Source: a virus. Taken from it: a DNA stretch of 29,420 nt. The stretch covers positions 1-29,420 of IMG/VR virus record IMGVR_UViG_3300044971_001305; one strand, given 5' to 3'. The notes beneath the pieces were generated by a model. That model did no database searches, was not told the DNA's origin, and saw nothing but the letters and a program-made list of their open reading frames with translations. Of this stretch, positions 7,361 to 25,220 are shown piece by piece (the stretch's first letter is position 1; every line of letters starts with the position of its first letter). The position numbers were made by a program, and so were the translations under genes.

Positions 7361-8371
7361 CTACTTAGCCCTAAACTCTTGGCCTGAATAAATAGCCCAA
7401 CCATCCATGATGTGAACTGGTTCAATACTGAACTCACCTGTGGTTTTATACCAAACTAGGCCCATACCTTGTTGCCAATTTTCCCATTGTTGTACTGGTT
7501 TCTCATCCATATTGATTCCACCTTTATAAGACGGAACTGCCCCATCTATACGACATAGGCATCCTGGACTAAACCCACCGTTTTGCTTTGGACCGTTCAT
7601 TGTTGAATGTGTTTTATAAGCCAATTCAAATCTATGTGAATGACCAAACAGTGTTGTAACGTGTGGGTTTGCATTTATATATTTATATGCAGTAGAACCA
7701 TTGCTTTGAGCTTTAGTTCCGTGAATGGCTATTAAATTTTCATTTAAATAAATATGACCTGCTGGATACCCACCTGCGTATTCAACTCTTAGTTCATCAA
7801 AAGCTAAAAGATGAGGCATGCTAATAACTGGAAATTCATCATCATTTACTCTGCGAACATTTCTTGCTGCTGGTGCTTTATCTCTTAAATATCGTTCCAT
7901 ACGGCAATCATGGTTACCTTCTAAGTAAACAATTCTTGCGTGTGGAGAAGCTGCTCTTTGACCTGCAAAAAAAGCATGACCTGCGCGTAAGCTTTCATTT
8001 ACAGAATTTTGCATTGATTCTTCTTGCATATATTTACCAAAATTAGGTAGGTCTAATGTGTCACCTAAATTAATAATATCGTCTACGCCATATTCTTCTT
8101 CTAATACAGCTGTAATTTGTAAAGCTACATCTATAGCTTTTGTATCGTGAAACGGGTCTAACTCTCCGTCATTAAATTTACGAAATCCTATTTGAGCGTC
8201 TGGAAGAAGTACTGCTAACTTCCAATCTCCATCTTTTTTATTTTTTTGTTTTACTGGCTTTGATAATTTTGCTGCTGTTACGCGAGTTAAATCAACACCA
8301 TCTTCTACTGGTGATTCTAATTGAGCTTTAATTACTGAAAATAAATCATCTAAATCTTTTGTTACTGACAT
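7361..8371 (-). CDS. calcineurin-like metallophosphoesterase
   Basis: 336 residues of the two-metal phosphoesterase fold. Motifs in order: LLPDAQIG (Asp58, with Gln60 where DxH is usual), NLGDTLD (Asp104), EGNHDCRMER (Asn153-His154-Asp155), AIHGTK (His217) and FGHSHR (His244, His246). The Asp-x-Gln variant of motif I differs from the usual Asp-x-His. Family members hydrolyse phosphodiesters in DNA, RNA or nucleotides; in phages some pair with recombination ATPases, but no SbcC-like partner is in the window. The ATG at 8371 has GGAGG 9 bases upstream and overlaps the end of the 76-residue gene by 10 bases. Substrate unknown. Confidence 0.92.
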   Translation of the reverse strand: MSVTKDLDDLFSVIKAQLESPVEDGVDLTRVTAAKLSKPVKQKNKKDGDWKLAVLLPDAQIGFRKFNDGELDPFHDTKAIDVALQITAVLEEEYGVDDIINLGDTLDLPNFGKYMQEESMQNSVNESLRAGHAFFAGQRAASPHARIVYLEGNHDCRMERYLRDKAPAARNVRRVNDDEFPVISMPHLLAFDELRVEYAGGYPAGHIYLNENLIAIHGTKAQSNGSTAYKYINANPHVTTLFGHSHRFELAYKTHSTMNGPKQNGGFSPGCLCRIDGAVPSYKGGINMDEKPVQQWENWQQGMGLVWYKTTGEFSIEPVHIMDGWAIYSGQEFRAK

Positions 8372-14424: not shown

Positions 14425-16397
14425 TTAGCTTCTCCCCATTTTTGAACTACTTTTATATCTGCTACCAAGGGAATGTTTAACACTTTTATACCTTCCATAG
14501 CATCTTTAATTGCAGTCGTTGATTCTTCAACCAGCCTATCAGGAGTAAGTGTGACTAGTTCGTCGTGAACCGTTAATAAGAGTTTCGCGCCTTCTGGTAA
14601 AGCAGCGTTGGCCCTCACCATGGCAACTTTAATAATGTCTGCAGCAGTGCCTTGAATACGAGTATTAAACGCCTGACGTTCAGCACCTGCTTTTAACCCT
14701 GGGTCTCGTGATAGTAATTCTGGTAAATATCTCTTTCTACCTAAAATTGTGGTTATGTGAGGCGGCCTACTGTTTCTAGCAACACCAATAATCTTTTGTC
14801 TGTATCTATTTACTGAAGTAAAGTTAGCCCCAAAATCATCTAGTAATGTTCTAGCCTCTCGTACGCTGCAACCTATTTGCCTAGCTATTTTGTCTGGACC
14901 TACTCCGTAAGCCATCGCTAGCACTAGTACCTTCCCAGCTTTTCTATCTACTCCCATAGTGTTTCCTACGGTTGTATAAATATCTCCACCTTCTTGGTAG
15001 TTCTTTAACATAATTGGGTCTTCTGACATAGAAGCAATAATGCGAGGTTCAATCTGTGAATAGTCAGCAACAATCAACTTATAACCTTCTGGAGCTATAA
15101 ATAAATTTCTAATAGCTTTACCATGGGCTGTATGAGGGGCTGGTACGTTTTGTAAATTTGGGTTACGACTTGAGAATCTACCTGTCTCAGCTCCGTGTTG
15201 AATGAAATCACAATGAATGCGACCATCTACTAATAAACTTTCTTTATAGTCGGTCTTAGATTTTCCATTAACAGTTCTAATTACTTCCCCGCCTAAATAA
15301 GGAATAACATAAGTTGTTAATAATTTATTTAAATCTGAATATTCTAAAAGAGCGTCTACTAATTCGTCTCTACCTCTAAAAGCCTCAAGGGCTTCAGAAG
15401 ACACTGAATAATCTGATACTGATAAATCTATACCTTCGTCATCTTTTTTCTTCCCCTTGCCTGTTAAAACGTGGGTCTTTAAACCTCGGCCACCTTGGTC
15501 TTTAGGACCATATAACTTTGCTTGCTTTTCTTGGTTAGAATTAATATTAAAAAATCCAGCAATTTTGTAAATAGTTTCTCTTGCTTTTTCTATATCAACT
15601 TCTAATAAATCTTTAAGTTCTTGTAGGGCTTTCATATCTATTGGTGCACCAGTAAGCTTCATTTCGCAAAGGACTGCTAGAACATCCATCTCTAATTTAA
15701 ATACATTATGTACTGCTTGTTCTTTAATCTTTGGTGTTAAAACTTTCCACAACATAAATGTGTATTTAGAATCTAAATAAGCATACTTAGCAACCTCAGT
15801 AAAGGAATACTTCTCTACTTCTTTTCCAATACCTTTAACCATCTCATAGTTAAACTCTCTCTTTAAACAATCGTCAAGACCTACTTTATTTTTATTACGG
15901 TTGTCTACAATAAATGAAGCAATCATTGTGTCAAAGTAAGGACCTACTGGAACTTTATTGTCAAAATATTTAGCAACAGAAGTTAAATCAAATACAAGAT
16001 TGTGACCTATTTTTAAAATATCTTTATTAAACATTAAAGGTTTTAATGCTTTAAATACCTCAGCCGGAAACAATTGTTTAGGAGCTTCACCAAATAAAAC
16101 AGTTGACTTTCTTTTATCTCTTGAGTAATCACTTGGTCTTACTTCTAATCCTTTAGCAACACGCTTCTCACCTTGACCAGTAAGAGGAAATAGTTCTTCT
16201 AAAAATTCTCCGTTTGGATGTCCCATAGGAATAACATCACATCTACCATAGGTTGCAAGGGTAATCCATAAAACTTCATTAACGACTGTAACGCCTCTGC
16301 GTGGACCTACTGTTTCAACGTCATAAGCAAAAGCATCTTGAGTTAGATAATGACTAACCATTTCGTTTAATTGGTCAGTAGTGGTAATTATATTCAT
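14421..16397 (-). CDS. polA: family A DNA polymerase with 3'-5' proofreading domain
   Basis: 658 residues: exonuclease plus polymerase, no 5'-3' nuclease domain. Proofreading motifs: AYDVETV (Asp26, Glu28), HNLVFDLTS (Asp137), YAYLDSKYTF (Asp209). Polymerase motif A VADYSQIEPR (Asp445), motif B RKAGKVLVLAMAYG (Arg485, Lys489, Tyr497) and motif C TVHDELV (His611, Asp612). The residue aligned with E. coli Phe762 is Leu493, the Leu762-type variant reported as common in environmental phage polymerases and linked to slower, more faithful synthesis. No ribosome binding site is visible; a 10-bp hairpin lies 16 bases upstream (16413-16444). It is the replicative polymerase of this phage. Confidence 0.97.
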   Translation of the reverse strand: MNIITTTDQLNEMVSHYLTQDAFAYDVETVGPRRGVTVVNEVLWITLATYGRCDVIPMGHPNGEFLEELFPLTGQGEKRVAKGLEVRPSDYSRDKRKSTVLFGEAPKQLFPAEVFKALKPLMFNKDILKIGHNLVFDLTSVAKYFDNKVPVGPYFDTMIASFIVDNRNKNKVGLDDCLKREFNYEMVKGIGKEVEKYSFTEVAKYAYLDSKYTFMLWKVLTPKIKEQAVHNVFKLEMDVLAVLCEMKLTGAPIDMKALQELKDLLEVDIEKARETIYKIAGFFNINSNQEKQAKLYGPKDQGGRGLKTHVLTGKGKKKDDEGIDLSVSDYSVSSEALEAFRGRDELVDALLEYSDLNKLLTTYVIPYLGGEVIRTVNGKSKTDYKESLLVDGRIHCDFIQHGAETGRFSSRNPNLQNVPAPHTAHGKAIRNLFIAPEGYKLIVADYSQIEPRIIASMSEDPIMLKNYQEGGDIYTTVGNTMGVDRKAGKVLVLAMAYGVGPDKIARQIGCSVREARTLLDDFGANFTSVNRYRQKIIGVARNSRPPHITTILGRKRYLPELLSRDPGLKAGAERQAFNTRIQGTAADIIKVAMVRANAALPEGAKLLLTVHDELVTLTPDRLVEESTTAIKDAMEGIKVLNIPLVADIKVVQKWGEAK

Positions 16398-18606: not shown

Positions 18607-20195
18607 TAAACCGACTCTCCTTGTAAGAACTTACTTAAACTTTGTACAGTAAGTTTAACACCCCCTTTGTCATCTATACCTTCTCCGTCAATAACGGCGT
18701 TTGCAACAGCATTCTTTTGTTGAAGCATGTCATGCTGCCTAACTTCTATTGAGCCACCCATAAGTAAATCTTGAATAACAATAGATTCCCAAGTAGAAGA
18801 TGCTCGTTTAATACGGCCGTTACGTTGAGCTGCCGAACCTGATGACCAAGGAAGGTCGTAATTTATGAGGAGATTAGCTGCAGGCAAATCGACGCCGTAA
18901 CCACCAGCGTCACTAGAAATAAGTACACGCACAGAAGAATCTTCGTTGAACGCAATTTTATTTTCCTCTTTAGTTCTAGCGTCTAATTTTCCTGAATAAA
19001 GCCTACATCTTTTAGGGCCTAGTTTCTCAGCAATCTTGTCCAACATATCTACATAAGAAGCAAATATTACAACCTTATGGTTGTCATTTTGTTCTAAAAA
19101 ATCTAAAGCATATTCTGTCATTGTTTCTAATTTATTAGAAGTTTTTATATCTTCTAGTAAACCGCTTTCAAACAACTCATTAGCGTAAGAAGAGCCTTCA
19201 CCATTCATTTGTTTAAACTTTTGAGCACTGGTTCTTAATAGGTCTGGGTGTGAGCATAACATTTTCAATGCACCAATTTTAGACATAATTTTTCCACGCA
19301 TCTCGTCTTCTGGTCCACCAGATTTAGATTCAAGTCCGTAATGAGACATTATGTTAAAAGAACTACCAAATAAATCTTGAGCTTCTTGTAAATCGTATAA
19401 AAGGTCAGTCTTTATTTTTTCGTATAGTTTTGCGCTTTTTCTGTCGAACGGGACGACAAGCGGGTCATTATGGATAGTGTCTGGAAGGTATGGGGCAACG
19501 TCCGGGTCTTTTTGAGCTTTTCGTACGCAAGCTGTACTAAGACGAGTATGAAGAGTAGGAAGATTCCTATAACGCTCAACACCGCCCCAGTTATTACGGA
19601 CAATAAACGCTTGGTCAAATAAATCAAACCTTCCTAATACCTCGGCATCTACAAACTGCATAATACTAAACAACTCTTCTGGTTTACCATTCTCAATAGG
19701 TGTGCCTGTAAGAGCAAACTTAAATGGAGAAGTTCCTAAACGCTTGGTGTACTTAGAGCGCTTAGACCTAAAAGACTTAATAGCAGTAGCCTCATCTAAT
19801 ACTACAAACCCTCTTGGTAATTTTTTAATCAAATCCCAATCGTTAACCACTTGTTCATAATTCATAATTACATAATCTACTTTGGTTTCTTTCCAGTTAT
19901 ACGCTTCTTGGTATTGAGACTGGCGTTTTGCTTTAGAACCATCTATGACTATGGCTTTAGAAGTATCATTAGTAAATTTTTTAATTTGATTAGCCCATTG
20001 ATATTTAAGACTAGATAAGCAAACGACTATTCCAGGCTCTTTTACTTTTCCTTCATCCATTAACCGCTCAATAGCAGCAATAGTTATAACAGTTTTACCA
20101 AGACCTAAATCGTATGCAACAAGCATCTTAGTTCTTTGGCACATTTTGTCTACAGCTTCTGGTTGATAAGGAAGAAGAGTTCCTTTAAAACTCAT
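18606..20195 (-). CDS. SNF2-like superfamily 2 helicase/ATPase
   Basis: 529 residues. Motif I DLGLGKT (29-35), motif II DEAT (134-137, instead of DEAH), motif III LTGTPIENG (162-170), and in the second RecA-like domain FASYVDM, SSDAGGYGVDLPAANLLINY and the QRNGRIKR arginine-finger motif. SNF2 proteins translocate on duplex DNA rather than unwinding freely; phage members help fork remodelling or recombination. The gene overlaps primase (ATGA) and the 73-residue gene. A full-length, apparently intact enzyme. Confidence 0.94.
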   Translation of the reverse strand: MSFKGTLLPYQPEAVDKMCQRTKMLVAYDLGLGKTVITIAAIERLMDEGKVKEPGIVVCLSSLKYQWANQIKKFTNDTSKAIVIDGSKAKRQSQYQEAYNWKETKVDYVIMNYEQVVNDWDLIKKLPRGFVVLDEATAIKSFRSKRSKYTKRLGTSPFKFALTGTPIENGKPEELFSIMQFVDAEVLGRFDLFDQAFIVRNNWGGVERYRNLPTLHTRLSTACVRKAQKDPDVAPYLPDTIHNDPLVVPFDRKSAKLYEKIKTDLLYDLQEAQDLFGSSFNIMSHYGLESKSGGPEDEMRGKIMSKIGALKMLCSHPDLLRTSAQKFKQMNGEGSSYANELFESGLLEDIKTSNKLETMTEYALDFLEQNDNHKVVIFASYVDMLDKIAEKLGPKRCRLYSGKLDARTKEENKIAFNEDSSVRVLISSDAGGYGVDLPAANLLINYDLPWSSGSAAQRNGRIKRASSTWESIVIQDLLMGGSIEVRQHDMLQQKNAVANAVIDGEGIDDKGGVKLTVQSLSKFLQGESV

Positions 20196-21136
20196 ACTAT
20201 TGCTTTCTCTCCATGCAATGAATGACGTGCTGTTTCTAATCCCTGTAGTATTTCTACCTTACTCATAGCCCCAACGTCTTTAACATCAATACCATCGTAA
20301 TTAAAAAACCAAACTTCAAAACCTTTTTCTTTAGCAAGCTTTAGCATTTGTACTGAAGATTTTTTACCAGCCTCATCGTTGTCCATAGCCATAAATATTT
20401 GTTTAGCACTTTTAATAAGTTTTACTTGTTGATTAGAGATGATTGCGCCAAACACAGCAACCCCTCCTGTTATACCTACTGAATCAAGTCTTACAACATC
20501 TAAAGGAGACTCAACAACTATAACTCTTTCTCCATCAAGCTGTTTAAACCCAAACAAGGCGTCGCTCTTTACTATTCCCGTTGGAAAGTTTTTAAAAAAT
20601 CTATTTGTAAAACCTTTTTCTTGCCAACCCATTAATTCTTTTGTATATGGGTCTCTTATAGGAATAATCCAATTGCTTTTATTACTGTCCCAAAGAATCT
20701 CATATTTAATTGCAGACTCTAAAGTTAATCCTCTAGCTTTTAATGCTTCAATAGGTGGGTTAACAAAAGCTTTTAAAGCAGCTTCAGTAATTTTTGGAGT
20801 CTCTGGTTCTACTGTAACTTTAGTAGTTCTTTCCCAAACGGTAGATAAATCTTCTGGTATTTCTAACCACTCTTTAGCTTGTCCATAATCAAAAAATCCA
20901 AAATTATCTTTCATATCTTTTAAGTAAGCAGTAAGGCTATATAGACTTCCTCGGTAATCGCAAGAAAAACAAATATGTGCTCCAGTTTCAAAATTTATAT
21001 ACCAAGAAGGATTACGGTCGTCTTTCCCAGTGCGCTCTTTATGAGCAGGGCAGTATGATTGAATTTCTGAACCTCTAACATTTACAACTTCAATACCTAA
21101 ACGTCCTAGTATTGTTTCCATTTGTTCTAGGGTCAT
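20192..21136 (-). CDS. DnaG-type DNA primase
   Basis: 314 residues. N-terminal zinc-binding domain: Cys29-x2-His32 and Cys56-x2-Cys59. Toprim domain: IVVESPLD (Glu209) and MAMDNDEAG (Asp252, Asp254), with a central segment between. It makes RNA primers for lagging-strand synthesis. No separate helicase-binding domain is visible, so it is smaller than bacterial DnaG. It is coupled by ATGA to the DnaB-like helicase upstream and to the SNF2-like helicase downstream. Confidence 0.93.
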   Translation of the reverse strand: MTLEQMETILGRLGIEVVNVRGSEIQSYCPAHKERTGKDDRNPSWYINFETGAHICFSCDYRGSLYSLTAYLKDMKDNFGFFDYGQAKEWLEIPEDLSTVWERTTKVTVEPETPKITEAALKAFVNPPIEALKARGLTLESAIKYEILWDSNKSNWIIPIRDPYTKELMGWQEKGFTNRFFKNFPTGIVKSDALFGFKQLDGERVIVVESPLDVVRLDSVGITGGVAVFGAIISNQQVKLIKSAKQIFMAMDNDEAGKKSSVQMLKLAKEKGFEVWFFNYDGIDVKDVGAMSKVEILQGLETARHSLHGEKAIV

Positions 21137-22365
21137 AAGTCTGTTTCGTCAATCTCTCTAAACTGAGCTTCGTTCCAATCCCATAAAAGCGATACTTCTG
21201 CGGGACCTGAGTTACGGCTTGCAATAACTTTTAATAAACGAGTGTCTTCTACATTCTCGTCTTCTTTTTGAAGACCTAGTAATACATCAGCGTCTTGTAA
21301 GAATGAAGATGAATAACCAATTGAATCTGCTGTTACGTTGCCTTTTTTCATTTTCCAATTAAGAACTTGGGTAGTAATAATTATAGGGCGTTGGAATCTC
21401 TGTGCTACTTTTTTAAGTGAACGAGTTATGTTAGTAAGGGCTTGAGCAGTATTTGATTCTCCTGATTGCTCATCCATCATTAGGTATACGCCATCAATAA
21501 AAACTACATGTGGTTGAAGTGTTTGAATCTTGCTAGCAATACCTGACACGGTGGAACCTGCCGCAGAATCTACTAACCAAAACTTTTGTTTCTCTTCTTT
21601 TAGTCTGTTAAGGACTGCTTTGTATCGTGATTCTTCTTCTGAGGTTAAAGTTCCTGTTAATAATCTTTGATGTGAAAGTTTAGCCCTCATTGCATCGTAT
21701 CGATTTTCTTGTTCTAAATTACTCATTTCAAATGACTGAAACATTGGGGTTTTTTGTGAATAGTAATGAACGTTGTGAGCAATCTGCATTGCAAGAGTTG
21801 ACTTACCAACTTTAGGTGGAGCAACGATAACAATCAATTGTCCGTTCTGTAATCCACTAGTTGCTTTATCAATAGTTGGGAAGCCGGTAGGGATGCCGCG
21901 TAAACCATTGGGGAGTAGTTTGCGCTCTTGATATTCATCCCACCGGCGGTCTGGGTCAGAAGTAATGTCTACGTCAGAACTTAACGTTAGACCATCTTCT
22001 TCTAATTTAATTAAACCTCGTTGTAAAACTAATAAAGCATCTTCGTGGTCTTTTTTCTTTTCAATACTTTGAATAGCATCTTGAATCATAGAAGAAGTAG
22101 CAAACTTTCTTCTAATGTTAATTATGTCGTCAATTAAATAATCAATTGAATCTTGTACTTCTACAAATTTGTAAGTTGGAAAATTAGCTGATACTACCTC
22201 TAAGCTTGGAGACTCTCCATATTTAGAAAAATGTTCTCTGGCAAATAGCCACAGTCTTCTATCATCTTCTTCTGAAAACCACTTTTCATTAACTCCTCTA
22301 GAAAATAAAGGTGTTAAGTTTCTATCCTTTATTGCTTTATTTATTAAACGAGTCTCATTGTTCAT
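21133..22365 (-). CDS. DnaB-like replicative helicase
   Basis: 410 residues from ATG 22365, which overlaps the preceding stop as ATGA; an upstream TTG at 22389 would add eight residues. The N-terminal domain is helical. The RecA-fold ATPase follows: GIPTGFPTIDKATSGLQNGQ, Walker A APPKVGKST, EMSNLEQ (the motif 1a region), Walker B VVFIDGVYLM, and IIITTQVLNWK. The hexameric helicase drives the fork. Its loader is encoded two genes upstream and primase immediately downstream, a complete primosome set. Confidence 0.94.
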   Translation of the reverse strand: MNNETRLINKAIKDRNLTPLFSRGVNEKWFSEEDDRRLWLFAREHFSKYGESPSLEVVSANFPTYKFVEVQDSIDYLIDDIINIRRKFATSSMIQDAIQSIEKKKDHEDALLVLQRGLIKLEEDGLTLSSDVDITSDPDRRWDEYQERKLLPNGLRGIPTGFPTIDKATSGLQNGQLIVIVAPPKVGKSTLAMQIAHNVHYYSQKTPMFQSFEMSNLEQENRYDAMRAKLSHQRLLTGTLTSEEESRYKAVLNRLKEEKQKFWLVDSAAGSTVSGIASKIQTLQPHVVFIDGVYLMMDEQSGESNTAQALTNITRSLKKVAQRFQRPIIITTQVLNWKMKKGNVTADSIGYSSSFLQDADVLLGLQKEDENVEDTRLLKVIASRNSGPAEVSLLWDWNEAQFREIDETDL

Positions 22366-22769
22366 ATCTGTGAGTAGTCCATTCCCCAATGTCCATATCT
22401 TAGAAGCCTATCAGGTAAATCTAACACACCTACAACCTCTGGTCTATAGGGCAATTCGTTAACTAGGTGATTGACAGATTTGTAAGGGGTAACGTATCTA
22501 AAAGGATTAGTACCCTGCTCATCTATAAGTTCTATTTCTTTTTGTAATTGTTTAGCGTTTTTATCAAATGAAGCTAATTCTAAAGTGTAACCTTTACGGT
22601 CAGCAAATAAATAAAGTTTGCTAAGTATTTGACGGTCATAAGATATTTCTTCGTCTGACACTGGTATTAACCTAAGAATTTTTTTAATTCTAGGTTCAAC
22701 GTTTGTAAATACATCCATAACGACTATTACCCTTTTAGGTAATTCGTTACTTAAGTCCCCTTTATACAC
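22362..22769 (-). CDS. hypothetical protein in the replication operon
   Basis: 135 residues, GTG start at 22769 with GAGGT about 10 bases upstream. RVIVVMDVFTN near the N-terminus followed by helices and EVVGVLDLPDRLLRYGHWGM at the end suggest an alpha/beta fold, possibly HAD- or NYN-like, but no catalytic set is clear. It starts soon after the SWIM gene stops and overlaps the helicase start, so it is likely made with both. Confidence 0.7.
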   Translation of the reverse strand: MYKGDLSNELPKRVIVVMDVFTNVEPRIKKILRLIPVSDEEISYDRQILSKLYLFADRKGYTLELASFDKNAKQLQKEIELIDEQGTNPFRYVTPYKSVNHLVNELPYRPEVVGVLDLPDRLLRYGHWGMDYSQI

Positions 22770-22772
22770 GAA

Positions 22773-23087
22773 TTAAAAGACCTCGATTTTTCCAAACTTG
22801 ATAACGAATTCTCTAAAAGCACTATTTGATTCTTTGGCTTTAAAGGCTTCATCATCAGTTGCTCTGTTGGAGATTTCCAAAGGATAAGTTCCGCCGTTGT
22901 TGTCGATTCTTGCTTTAACAAATTTGACATGTTTACAGGTTAGCCTTCCTTGGAATCCTGGGCAAGTGCAGGAAAGACTACCATTTTCTTTTACACTAAC
23001 TTCGTGAATGTTAGGGCCTGGTGATTGAGTTTGACTTAAAAAAACTTGAACTAAGCGTGAGTCTTCGTCCACGTACTTACCTCTCAT
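22773..23087 (-). CDS. SWIM zinc-finger protein
   Basis: 104 residues. Cys40-x-Cys42-x8-Cys51-x-His53 (SCTCPGFQGRLTCKHV) is a canonical SWIM motif. SWIM domains bind DNA or proteins and occur with SNF2 ATPases and recombination regulators. Here it stands alone, coupled by ATGA to the loader gene, with an SNF2-like helicase encoded 2.6 kb downstream. A partner relation with that helicase is a hypothesis. Confidence 0.88.
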   Translation of the reverse strand: MRGKYVDEDSRLVQVFLSQTQSPGPNIHEVSVKENGSLSCTCPGFQGRLTCKHVKFVKARIDNNGGTYPLEISNRATDDEAFKAKESNSAFREFVIKFGKIEVF

Positions 23088-23773
23088 TTTCTTAAATCAC
23101 TGCCGTCTACGACTAAATATGAAAACGCTTCTCTTGCAAAACTTTCTGTAGCGTCACCATATAGGCTAGCCCAATTATCTAGTGAAGCGTTGGTTGTAAC
23201 GATAGTAGGCAAGCCGTTGTTAAAACGAGTTCTAAGTAAATGGTGGAGCATAGACTTCTGCCACTCTGAGTGTTTTGAAACGTGTTCTTTACCAACGTCG
23301 TCAAGAACTAAAACTCTGATGTTGTAAGCATCATCTTCTGCTTCACCAAACAAACCGGCAAGTAAAACATCTTCACTTTCGGTCAGGTCGTTTTGTATAT
23401 CTTTACCTTTTAAGTTTAATACGTCGTTATAAGTTATGAAGTAGCAAGGACGAACTAAAACTTTTCCTTCACCTGGTTTAAAAGAGGCTAGAGGTAGTTC
23501 TTTAAGCATCTCTTGAATGACAGAAAGCGCCAAAGTAGTCTTTCCTCTACCCGGAGCCCCGTATAAAAGAATTCCACGGCCACAGAGACGGTCTGAGGCC
23601 TCTTTAATGACCCTACCTTCACTGACTCGCGAAATCCACGATTTTAGGCCATTTAGGACCTCTAATGGGGCGTCTGTACAGTCTTCTAATCCCCACCCAA
23701 CTCTTTTCCAAGGAATGTTGGCTAGTTGAATCCAAGACCTTCTACGAACCTTAAGGTCCTCGGGCTTAAACAT
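23084..23773 (-). CDS. DnaC-like AAA+ helicase loader
   Basis: 229 residues from ATG 23773, in a TAATG overlap and with AAGGAA (23781-23786) 7 bases upstream; the longer form from 23791 lacks a ribosome binding site. Walker A YGAPGRGKTT (71-80), Walker B VLVLDDVGKE (154-163), sensor I IVTTNAS. It loads the DnaB-like helicase onto origin DNA. It directly follows the initiator gene, the same order as lambda O and P. Confidence 0.92.
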   Translation of the reverse strand: MFKPEDLKVRRRSWIQLANIPWKRVGWGLEDCTDAPLEVLNGLKSWISRVSEGRVIKEASDRLCGRGILLYGAPGRGKTTLALSVIQEMLKELPLASFKPGEGKVLVRPCYFITYNDVLNLKGKDIQNDLTESEDVLLAGLFGEAEDDAYNIRVLVLDDVGKEHVSKHSEWQKSMLHHLLRTRFNNGLPTIVTTNASLDNWASLYGDATESFAREAFSYLVVDGSDLRK

Positions 23774-24630
23774 TAAAGGATTCCTTCCCATGATTTAGCA
23801 GACTGCTCTTTGGCTTTCTGTATCTCGTCTTCGGAATGTATCCTAGTTTTAGCCTGTGCCGCAAGTGCAGAGAATCTTGATATAAACATTCTCCAAAGAA
23901 TATTTCCATCTGAGTACTTTCCATCTGTAAGACTACTAAAAAATATGTTCATCATTTCAACCTCAAGTTCCCCATTGGTGTCGTTCTTAACTCTAGCCCC
24001 AGCTAAAGCCGGAATAAAGTTACTTTCTGTAAGAGAAATGGGAGATATGTTCCAAAGTTCTTCTATACGGCGAGCAAACTCATAAGCACAATCCTGTGGA
24101 CTCCAGTCTTTAACTGGTTTATTAGCACGATTGTATTTTGCTTTTTCTTGCTTGGCTTTTTTGGCTGCATTAAACTCTTTCTTCTTTTGAGCCTTTAGCT
24201 TTTGGTTAGCCTCTTTAACTTCTTTTTCAAATTCATCTTCCGAATTATTAGAAAAGAATTTATATCCCATTTCATTCCCTTCCTCCATTCGGACTCCGTC
24301 CGAATAAAGACCTAATATATTTATATGTTTAGAACTAGTATTAGTTAGCATATTCAGTGATAACAGTGGCTCGGTTTTCAACCACCCCGGTTGATTTTCA
24401 GCCACCCCTGGCTGATTTTCAACCAGTACCCATGTATTGACTCCTACAGGGTTTCCATTTATATTTTGAACTTTATATTTAAGTATTCCTAAAGCTTTTA
24501 GTTCATTAATAGCCGTGGTAATAGCATACCTACCCTCTTTAAGAACCTTTTCTAAAGAACGTGCGCTTATGTTTACATTTGGGTTATTTTTTAAATAAGT
24601 CAATAATCCAAGTGCACTCAATGACATCAT
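23773..24630 (-). CDS. replication initiator, lambda O-like arrangement with an internal origin
   Basis: 285 residues. The N-terminus (LGLLTYLKNNPNVNISARSL and following) is a winged helix of the type in phage initiators. Residues about 69-115 are a low-complexity linker with the repeat ENQPG; its DNA carries the alternating inverted hexamers, AT-rich stretch and dyad described separately. A Lys/Ala/Glu-rich coiled segment (about 131-166) precedes a C-terminal helical domain that would bind the loader or helicase. Position before the DnaC-like gene supports the role. The family was not recognised by sequence alone; assignment rests on layout, fold pattern and the site cluster. Confidence 0.8.
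   Translation of the reverse strand: MMSLSALGLLTYLKNNPNVNISARSLEKVLKEGRYAITTAINELKALGILKYKVQNINGNPVGVNTWVLVENQPGVAENQPGWLKTEPLLSLNMLTNTSSKHINILGLYSDGVRMEEGNEMGYKFFSNNSEDEFEKEVKEANQKLKAQKKKEFNAAKKAKQEKAKYNRANKPVKDWSPQDCAYEFARRIEELWNISPISLTESNFIPALAGARVKNDTNGELEVEMMNIFFSSLTDGKYSDGNILWRMFISRFSALAAQAKTRIHSEDEIQKAKEQSAKSWEGIL
24287..24305. repeat. perfect 8-bp dyad with 3-base spacer
   Basis: ATTCGGAC-TCC-GTCCGAAT. It lies on the far side of the AT-rich stretch from the hexamer cluster. It codes for part of residues about 109-115. It could be a protein-binding site or a hairpin. Confidence 0.75.
24378..24424. repeat. iteron-like cluster of alternating inverted hexamers
   Basis: On the plus strand: TCAACC (24378), GGTTGA (24389), TCAGCC (24398), GGCTGA (24410), TCAACC (24419). 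Adjacent pairs are perfect inverted repeats around ACCCC or ACCCCT, and the second pair has an A-to-G change matched by T-to-C in its partner. On the minus strand the unit reads TGGYTGAAAAYC three times at 21- and 20-base steps. Confidence 0.7.
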
Positions 24631-25220
24631 TTTTTAAGTTGGTCCTTAACGTGAGTGACGACCATAGTTGCAAAAATTCTTGCTATTTCATCTAATGAAA
24701 TGTAAAGAGAATCTAGTTCATCAATCTCTTCTTCTTCATCTTCGTCATCTTCGTCTTCATCTTCTTCTACATTAAAATCTATGTGCTTTGGTACTTCCAT
24801 AGATAGTTGTTCTTGAATAGGTGGTTGAGGTCTTTCTTCTACCTTTAAAGACCCTTTAGTATTAATTTGGATTAACCCATCAGTTAAATCAAAAGAAGGA
24901 ACTCCAGCATCATTACATTCTGATAAAACGTTAAGACAATCTTCGTCTTCATCGTTCCATAGTAAAAACGCTGCTGCTTTTGAACCTTTAACTGTTTTTA
25001 AAGCTTCTTTAATAGCATTAGGTTTATTTATTACAACTACTTCTTTGTTTTTATCTTTAGCTAATTGAGAAGCCCAAGTTTGACCTTCACTTGGATTTTT
25101 TTCATAAGGTAAAACTAAAACCCCACCATCACCTTCTGCATGGTAGTGGTCTTCTAAAAGTACTTCGATATTTGTACGAGATGTTTTCCCGTTTCCTGCA
25201 ACGATTACGTAGTAAGTCAT
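24627..25220 (-). CDS. hypothetical protein with Rossmann-like N-terminus and acidic tract
   Basis: 197 residues, first gene of the replication operon. The N-terminal 120 residues alternate strands and helices (YYVIVAGNGKTSRTN, EVVVINKP, AAFLLWNDEDED); GNGKTS resembles a nucleotide-binding turn but lacks a full Walker A. Residues about 150-170 are almost purely Glu/Asp. A helical C-terminus follows. GGAGGG precedes the ATG. It may be an early regulator or a DNA-mimic-like protein; unproven. ATGA overlap with the initiator. Confidence 0.72.
   Translation of the reverse strand: MTYYVIVAGNGKTSRTNIEVLLEDHYHAEGDGGVLVLPYEKNPSEGQTWASQLAKDKNKEVVVINKPNAIKEALKTVKGSKAAAFLLWNDEDEDCLNVLSECNDAGVPSFDLTDGLIQINTKGSLKVEERPQPPIQEQLSMEVPKHIDFNVEEDEDEDDEDEEEEIDELDSLYISLDEIARIFATMVVTHVKDQLKK
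24719..24769. repeat. GAA/GAT-type trinucleotide tract
   Basis: A run of TCT/TCA/TCG triplets on the plus strand encodes the Glu/Asp tract of the 197-residue protein. It is imperfect, hence expected to vary in length between related phages. Confidence 0.7.

Follow-up and report, generated by a model that had tools for sequence, protein, structure and literature searches.

The question raised by this locus is whether the gene of a phage replication initiator also carries, within its own coding sequence, the origin from which replication would start. The window, by which we mean the whole stretch of DNA analyzed, is an entire virus record of IMG/VR (29,420 bp), and its first-pass annotation had placed a lambda-like origin inside an initiator gene. 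Here, we regard a lambda-type replication origin embedded in the initiator gene as the best reading of the locus and, taken jointly with the mechanism proposed below, as a probable one. The main support for this reading comes from the layout that is kept in relatives and not from the hexamers. The earlier proposal stands with respect to the layout, the domain prediction and the retention of the layout in relatives, and fails with respect to hexamer conservation and GC skew.

Gene neighborhood and layout of the initiator linker

The replication genes considered here are the following:

23773..24630 (-), initiator gene, an ORF of 285 aa (winged helix, residues 1-70; linker, 73-129; C-terminal domain, 131-284)
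23084..23791 (-), DnaC-like helicase loader gene (phrog_50, E 1.4e-26; IstB_IS21, E 9.9e-9)
21133..22389 (-), DnaB-like replicative helicase gene (phrog_19, E 1.5e-60)
20192..21136 (-), DnaG-like primase gene (phrog_47, E 2.5e-40)

As had been proposed, a DnaC-like loader comes next to the initiator: its ORF (23084-23791) overlaps the 3' end of the initiator gene, and beyond it lie genes for the DnaB-like helicase, the DnaG-like primase, an SNF2-type helicase and a family A polymerase. The closest cultured phages are Streptomyces phage BRock and its relatives, both for the loader (32-35% identity) and for the helicase (about 32-33%). The window's initiator had no match in 50,697 phage records (tblastn, E 0.01), and the initiators of two relatives, searched likewise, had none either. 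The gene preceding the initiator (24627-25220, minus strand) has the start MTYYVIVAGNGK and an acidic tail. By eye, it looks similar to the gene that lies upstream of the Streptomyces loader region in L357-L360 (VAGNGT and similar), so that the gene order may be old.

Structure prediction of the initiator by AlphaFold2 with 38 alignment rows (mean pLDDT 70.5, pTM 0.40; an earlier model from 5 rows was poor, with a pLDDT of 42) revealed a winged helix (residues 1-70), a linker predicted to be disordered (residues 73-129), in keeping with the low-complexity linker described before, and a helical C-terminal domain (residues 131-284). Most of the repeat array, the A+T stretch, the hairpin and the internal ATG encode this disordered linker, where they follow one another in the direction of the gene as dyad 1, dyad 2, half-site, A+T stretch, hairpin, GGAGG and in-frame ATG:

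24410..24424 (-), iteron 1, dyad GGTTGAAAATCAGCC (repeat and dyad scan)
24389..24403 (-), iteron 2, dyad GGCTGAAAATCAACC (repeat and dyad scan)
24378..24383 (-), half-site GGTTGA, third unit, in the other reading frame
24306..24367 (-), A+T-rich stretch, candidate DNA unwinding element (composition)
24287..24305 (-), perfect 8-bp hairpin ATTCGGAC-GGA-GTCCGAAT (dyad scan)
24282..24286 (-), Shine-Dalgarno-like GGAGG, with the strongest anti-SD pairing among the compared in-frame NTG codons of this gene
23773..24270 (-), probable second coding unit of 165 aa that would start at the internal ATG (24268-24270) and comprise the C-terminal domain only

The window therefore displays the lambda-type layout of dyad iterons, an A+T stretch, a palindrome beyond it and a loader gene downstream. 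The five hexamers with a 20-21-base spacing on which the earlier proposal was built were recovered, starting at 24378, 24389, 24398, 24410 and 24419, with same-sense spacings of 20, 21 and 21, and the 15-mer GGYTGAAAATCARCC occurs twice exactly (24389-24403 and 24410-24424). Moreover, the array is the window's top-scoring tandem repeat (score 81, the next being 49), which provides support independent of the choice of hexamer. Five of the window's 29 such hexamers on both strands fall within 47 nt, while 300 second-order Markov sequences gave a maximum of three per 55 nt, a comparison for which the motif was picked post hoc, after it had been sighted. Since the third unit lies 20 nt past the second, it is read in the other frame, the encoded peptides being VENQPG, AENQPG and then WLK; hence the DNA repeats while the peptide does not. 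The adjoining stretch had been given as 50 bases of 78% A+T, and we measured 76% over the 50 nt of 24310-24359. The perfect 8-bp dyad is likewise present (arms 24287-24294 and 24298-24305, loop of 3 nt), and its predicted DNA fold has an energy of -6.5 kcal/mol (z -3.3); C-GNA-G triloops are known to form very stable DNA mini-hairpins. In codon shuffles, the window's repeat reached p 0.06 in one test and 0.18 in another, neither of them significant, because the peptide itself is partly repeated, and the window's hairpin alone gave p 0.12. As neither element reaches significance in the window, the relatives decide.

The GC-skew inflection that had been anticipated at the site was not found: the cumulative curve over about 84 kb showed no turn at 24.3 kb, where it drops, and it levels off from about 26 kb. 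This test is weak and is not counted against the origin, since almost all of the long ORFs have the same orientation. A 60.6-kb contig (G007), 99.9% identical over 4,869 bp, terminates within the initiator gene at window position 24552, ~130 nt upstream of the iteron array (window 24552; L008/L192 1-80).

Turnover of the iterons and retention of the hairpin among relatives

Seven loci encode initiators that are 88-100% identical to that of the window over the matched parts, and the window was aligned with six of them (L008, with only 26 codons, was omitted). Across the seven aligned sequences, the array is unchanged except for two substitutions. In dyad 1 of L005, C replaces T and GGYTGA is preserved; the other substitution, A to G, falls in the spacer that separates the dyads. 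Dyad 2 is invariant. One near-identical phage (L006, gene 790-1548) carries an in-frame 99-bp deletion that begins 10 nt after the half-site and takes out the A+T stretch, the hairpin, GGAGG and most of the ATG, with no microhomology seen by eye at the breakpoints. It is possible that L006 is a defective or origin-less variant, that it is misassembled, or that the deleted parts are dispensable. According to PMC6022878, in-frame deletions of the lambda A+T region leave an O protein that still complements while the origin fails, so a deletion of the L006 type need not harm the protein. In L007, a deletion of ~125 bp around position 593 fuses the late initiator gene to the early loader gene.

Further away, the hexamers are not retained. 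They had been expected to be kept in homologues; they persist only among phages that are at least 90% alike and are absent at ~30% identity, and among L198-L276 two copies of the core TGAAAATCA occur only in L198, L199 and L200, which are of the window's own kind. At ~30% identity, relatives carry other sequences at the array site, some with direct repeats of their own, and keep the A+T stretch and the hairpin. Because the layout persists through the turnover of the iteron sequence, the constrained parts stand out.

Two sets of relatives were compared. The first was drawn from an alignment of helicases (window and BRock; best 80 of 178 relatives), from which 36 of the 80 loci were chosen by hand, excluding near-duplicates, truncated genes and loci in which no long initiator ORF was present; their initiators share 26-33% identity with that of the window in the nearer group and 14-22% further out, with L200 at 90%. 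The second, held-out set was drawn from an alignment of loaders (best 80 of 330 relatives), in which 74 new loci yielded 65 complete genes and, once copies at least 90% identical to each other or to the first set were removed, 36 genes.

In the first set, the longest hairpin of the whole gene, ties allowed, ends at most 60 nt upstream of the internal codon in 28 of the 36 genes, compared with 5.0 +/- 2.5 (maximum 11) in codon shuffles. In the held-out set, where the start was defined as the NTG with the strongest SD in codons 95-170, the longest hairpin lies 0-60 nt upstream of it in 29 of 36 genes, compared with 4.7 +/- 1.7 (maximum 9) in 40 rounds of codon shuffling, ties again allowed. Without ties, 23/36 and 15/36 genes pass, respectively; even with ties, eight first-set genes (L247, L267, L270, L251, L252, L224, L226 and L235) and seven held-out genes fail, and about six held-out passes (L296, L309, L318, L326, L341 and L355) stem, by eye, from a hairpin inside the A+T stretch and not from the purine-loop one. 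Local stems in the held-out set average 5.83 bp, compared with 3.65 bp in shuffles, with p <=0.05 in 23 of 36 genes. As the compared genes are homologous and not independent, both sets were grouped at 50% protein identity; in 19 of the resulting 23 clusters, half or more of the members pass. Finally, a stem of at least 6 bp with a loop of 3-5 nt at nt 255-450 was found in 68 of all 72 genes, compared with 11.5 in codon shuffles (10 rounds, maximum 15). The dyad, which the first-pass annotation merely listed, is the best conserved part of the layout.

The finer properties of the hairpin were analyzed in 63 genes, of which 61 have it, a count that is preselected, since nine first-set genes with no hairpin by eye (L247, L267, L270, L251, L252, L255, L224, L235 and L274) had been omitted. 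These 61 hairpins comprise 38 distinct inner stems; 37 have a C-G closing pair, and the loops are often purine (GAA 8, GGA 8, GAG 7, GGG 4). The CGGACGGAGTCCG hairpin is read in different frames in the window and in L345, as is the GCGAACGGAGTTCGC hairpin in L201 and L299. That the stems vary in both sequence and frame indicates that a nucleic-acid structure is kept, not a peptide. The A+T content rises from about 50% at 80-100 nt upstream of the hairpin to 76% in the last 20 nt (61 genes). Within the 60 nt before the hairpin, ATA, AAT, TAA and TAG are enriched on the coding strand, which recalls DnaA-trio elements and could be explained by codon constraints as well.

Stem changes between near relatives, which numbered eight two-sided Watson-Crick, one G-T and 17 mismatching while the loops change freely, decide little and do not distinguish DNA from RNA, since many fall in chance hairpins (by eye, three of the eight Watson-Crick and about 12 of the 17 mismatching changes lie off the true site) and the remainder are too few (five two-sided Watson-Crick changes, some of the same pair both ways, five mismatches and one G-T).

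Iteron-like sequence was also sought in the linkers as such. Exact direct repeats exceeded codon shuffles in 24 of 61 genes at p 0.05 and in 16 at p 0.01, some of the repeat-positive genes being close relatives with one common repeat; the other 37 genes, the window included, had no significant exact direct repeat, in a test that imperfect or inverted sites would escape. In viral contigs at large, tandem TGAAAATCA is hardly commoner (93 stretches) than its reversed control (85), and this near-equal count speaks against the core as a widespread shared iteron motif; an excess is seen solely among copies flanked by dyad arms. In the 80 of 93 stretches and 80 of 85 control stretches for which dyad arms were compared, arrays in which at least two copies have arms of at least 2 bp made up 13 of 66 distinct arrays and 2 of 64 control arrays, and with arms of at least 3 bp they numbered seven and none, respectively. 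Inspection of 19 loci placed the array, by eye, inside initiator-looking ORFs in L042, L043, L045, L046 and L075 and within a long ORF in L019; in roughly half of these loci, the array is not covered by any ORF of 80 aa. The L019 ORF (8625-10304, minus strand) belongs to a G+C-rich phage with no detected initiator match and has many GGCTGAAAATCAGCC-type dyads in its middle, with the core as in the window. No phage-origin paper was apparent by title among the matches listed in a literature search with the letters of the core. The 12 kb around the loader gene of BRock hold four two-copy repeat families, none of which contains the window's iteron sequence. In L193, many CCTTG-type repeats of 9, 18 and 27 nt (7693-8313 and 15160-15806) perhaps encode collagen-like tail proteins.

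A genome scan returned six loader relatives. One of these, in Nonomuraea sp. SYSU D8015 (L361), adjoins a full-length initiator (family profile E 2.2e-8) whose longest hairpin, CTCGCGC-tcc-GCGCGAG, is at the matching place and is preceded by CCGGAT-type dyads and, by eye, by a less G+C-rich stretch; no internal start was seen there by eye. Four Streptomyces loci (L357-L360) have a short gene before the loader that by eye resembles the C-terminal domain and was not detected by the family profile at E 0.1, and no iteron-like array was found between it and the upstream gene. In a stretch of ~400 nt between two genes of these loci (about 1880-2400), blocks appear conserved by eye.

The codon opening the C-terminal domain

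Beyond what the first-pass annotation had described, translation probably starts a second time at the codon that opens the C-terminal domain. In 33 of 63 genes, the beginning of this domain is recognizable by a GYEFF-like motif, and the preceding codon is ATG in 16, GTG in 15, TTG in one and GCG in one. In the first set, GTG accounts for 128 of 683 Val codons, compared with 15 of 15 where the internal codon encodes Val. On a tree of C-terminal domains, the internal codon changes at least eight times, and well-supported branches alone force five changes for ATG and four for GTG, each versus the rest. This interchange of ATG, GTG and TTG in 32 of 33 genes, with eight changes on the tree, points to a second start, and the occurrence of the C-terminal domain as a gene of its own in L268 and L273 is in keeping with a second coding unit. 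The window's gene carries both an internal in-frame start and a ribosome-binding site, as far as sequence signals go. Among the matches listed in a search of openly licensed literature, none concerned a phage initiator gene with an internal start next to its origin.

The same signals invite a reading in which the hairpin, GGAGG and NTG serve solely for the translation of a nested gene that encodes the C-terminal domain, the repeats reflecting the peptide (ENQPG) and the origin lying elsewhere. We consider this unlikely, although it is the alternative that fares best. In its favor, no other in-frame NTG codon compared has a stronger SD than the internal one in 31 of 36 first-set genes, where internal codons were chosen by hand (that of L247 most freely), and the strongest SD falls in codons 85-175 in 26 of 36 held-out genes, including L287 and L318, in which it is by eye not at the domain start; the internal SD itself is not significant versus codon shuffles. 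Furthermore, the C-terminal domain stands alone as a separate gene in L268 and L273, with AGGAG ahead of its start. Against it, the distance from hairpin to start varies over about 9 to 56 nt while the A+T content peaks directly before the hairpin, and the third iteron unit is out of frame with the peptide repeat.

Under the embedded-origin reading, the initiator's winged helix would bind the A-centered dyads encoded in its own linker, and the A+T stretch beside them would open. On its far side, the opened region would be bounded by the hairpin, which may fold in single-stranded form. The C-terminal domain would then hand over to the DnaC-like loader, which would load the phage's DnaB-like helicase, while the internal ribosome-binding site just past the hairpin would yield the C-terminal domain as a separate protein. 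More tentatively, and with slightly less than even confidence, we propose that a large, uncharacterized phage group shares a composite origin of ~160 nt, comprising linker, binding sites, unwinding element, hairpin and ribosome-binding site, in which opening and the output of the short protein influence each other, and that the hairpin is a general component, lambda included. Gene-embedded origins are best known from lambda and its kin, and here one can be compared across dozens of sequenced relatives. What appears to be new is this family-wide view, with iteron turnover, a fixed layout, a hairpin kept as a structure and a probable second start behind it. Besides the iterons and the A+T tract, the hairpin suggests an additional step at the border of the unwinding element, and the internal start, if true, would allow a phage to produce the part of its initiator that faces the loader separately from the part that binds DNA.

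Fold of the N-terminal domain and comparison with known systems

The best 50 structure matches in the PDB cover residues 1-81 of the initiator (Z 8.7 to 10.3), and the best matches to residues 1-78 are winged-helix domains, many from MarR-type regulators and some of the Z-alpha type. A PDB sequence search returned nothing at E 1, and the top two structure matches in BFVD are uncharacterized proteins of uncultured phages. PHROG matches of the window's own N-terminus are weak, the best being a DnaD-like loader family (phrog_186, E 7.5e-4). Below E 1e-3, the N-termini of five of ten relatives (L243, L267, L229, L217 and L235) match replication-initiation, O-like or related DNA-binding families, with some matching the O-like phrog_678, phrog_391 or phrog_345; L243 matches phrog_270 (E 2.9e-10) and phrog_678 (E 3.9e-5) and also passes the HTH_36 cut-off. 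The other five (L201, L213, L216, L204 and L268) have no replication-family match below E 1e-3, and that the window's nearest relatives, L201, L213 and L216, are among them counts against the origin reading. None of the lambda-locus ORFs scored with the initiator family profile at E 0.1.

The abundance of MarR-type transcription regulators among these folds, together with dyads about two helical turns apart that would suit a dimeric repressor, raises the option that the array is an autoregulatory operator from which the winged-helix protein represses its own operon at intragenic sites, with no origin involved. This we judge highly improbable: the sites lie ~200 nt inside the gene, the adjacent A+T stretch, hairpin and downstream loader gene stay unexplained, and half of the ten relatives match replication-initiation or related families. 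That a chance repeat merely coincides with an unrelated palindrome in low-complexity coding sequence can practically be dismissed, for although the window's codon-shuffle values (0.06 to 0.18 for the repeat, 0.12 for the hairpin) would allow it, the array is the window's top tandem repeat and changes frame between units, and the hairpin tests gave 28/36 and 29/36 versus about 5 expected.

With respect to the embedded origin, the closest parallel is lambda (NC_001416), where the annotated iterons lie inside gene O (38686-39585). Both systems have dyad iterons with an A-rich center inside the initiator gene, followed by an A+T stretch and then a palindrome, and in both the next replication protein gene (P in lambda, the DnaC-like loader here) adjoins the initiator. 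PMC7466680 gives two iterons plus the A+T region as the minimal opening fragment of lambda, the origin is described as iterons plus an A+T region in PMC7466680 and PMC5043065, and hairpins of lambdoid origins are discussed, in the former, for the iterons themselves. The palindrome of lambda is imperfect and spans 28 nt (gene O nt 477-504), whereas the window's hairpin is a perfect 8 bp; it is the top hairpin of gene O only when mismatches are allowed, a strict scan picking one between the iterons instead. The systems also differ in the number of iterons (four in lambda versus two and a half in the window), in the iteron sequence, and in that the window phage has a DnaC-like loader as well as its own DnaB-like helicase. 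In addition, by eye no SD plus NTG follows the lambda palindrome, whereas the window has its probable internal start there.

For the predicted pair of same-frame proteins from one initiator gene, iteron plasmids offer a likeness. TrfA of RK2 is an iteron plasmid initiator with two in-frame products. Rep of pIGRK is reported to be another (PMC6854812). Unlike in these two, the DNA-binding domain would be missing from the window's putative shorter product, and the probable internal start adjoins the proposed embedded origin.
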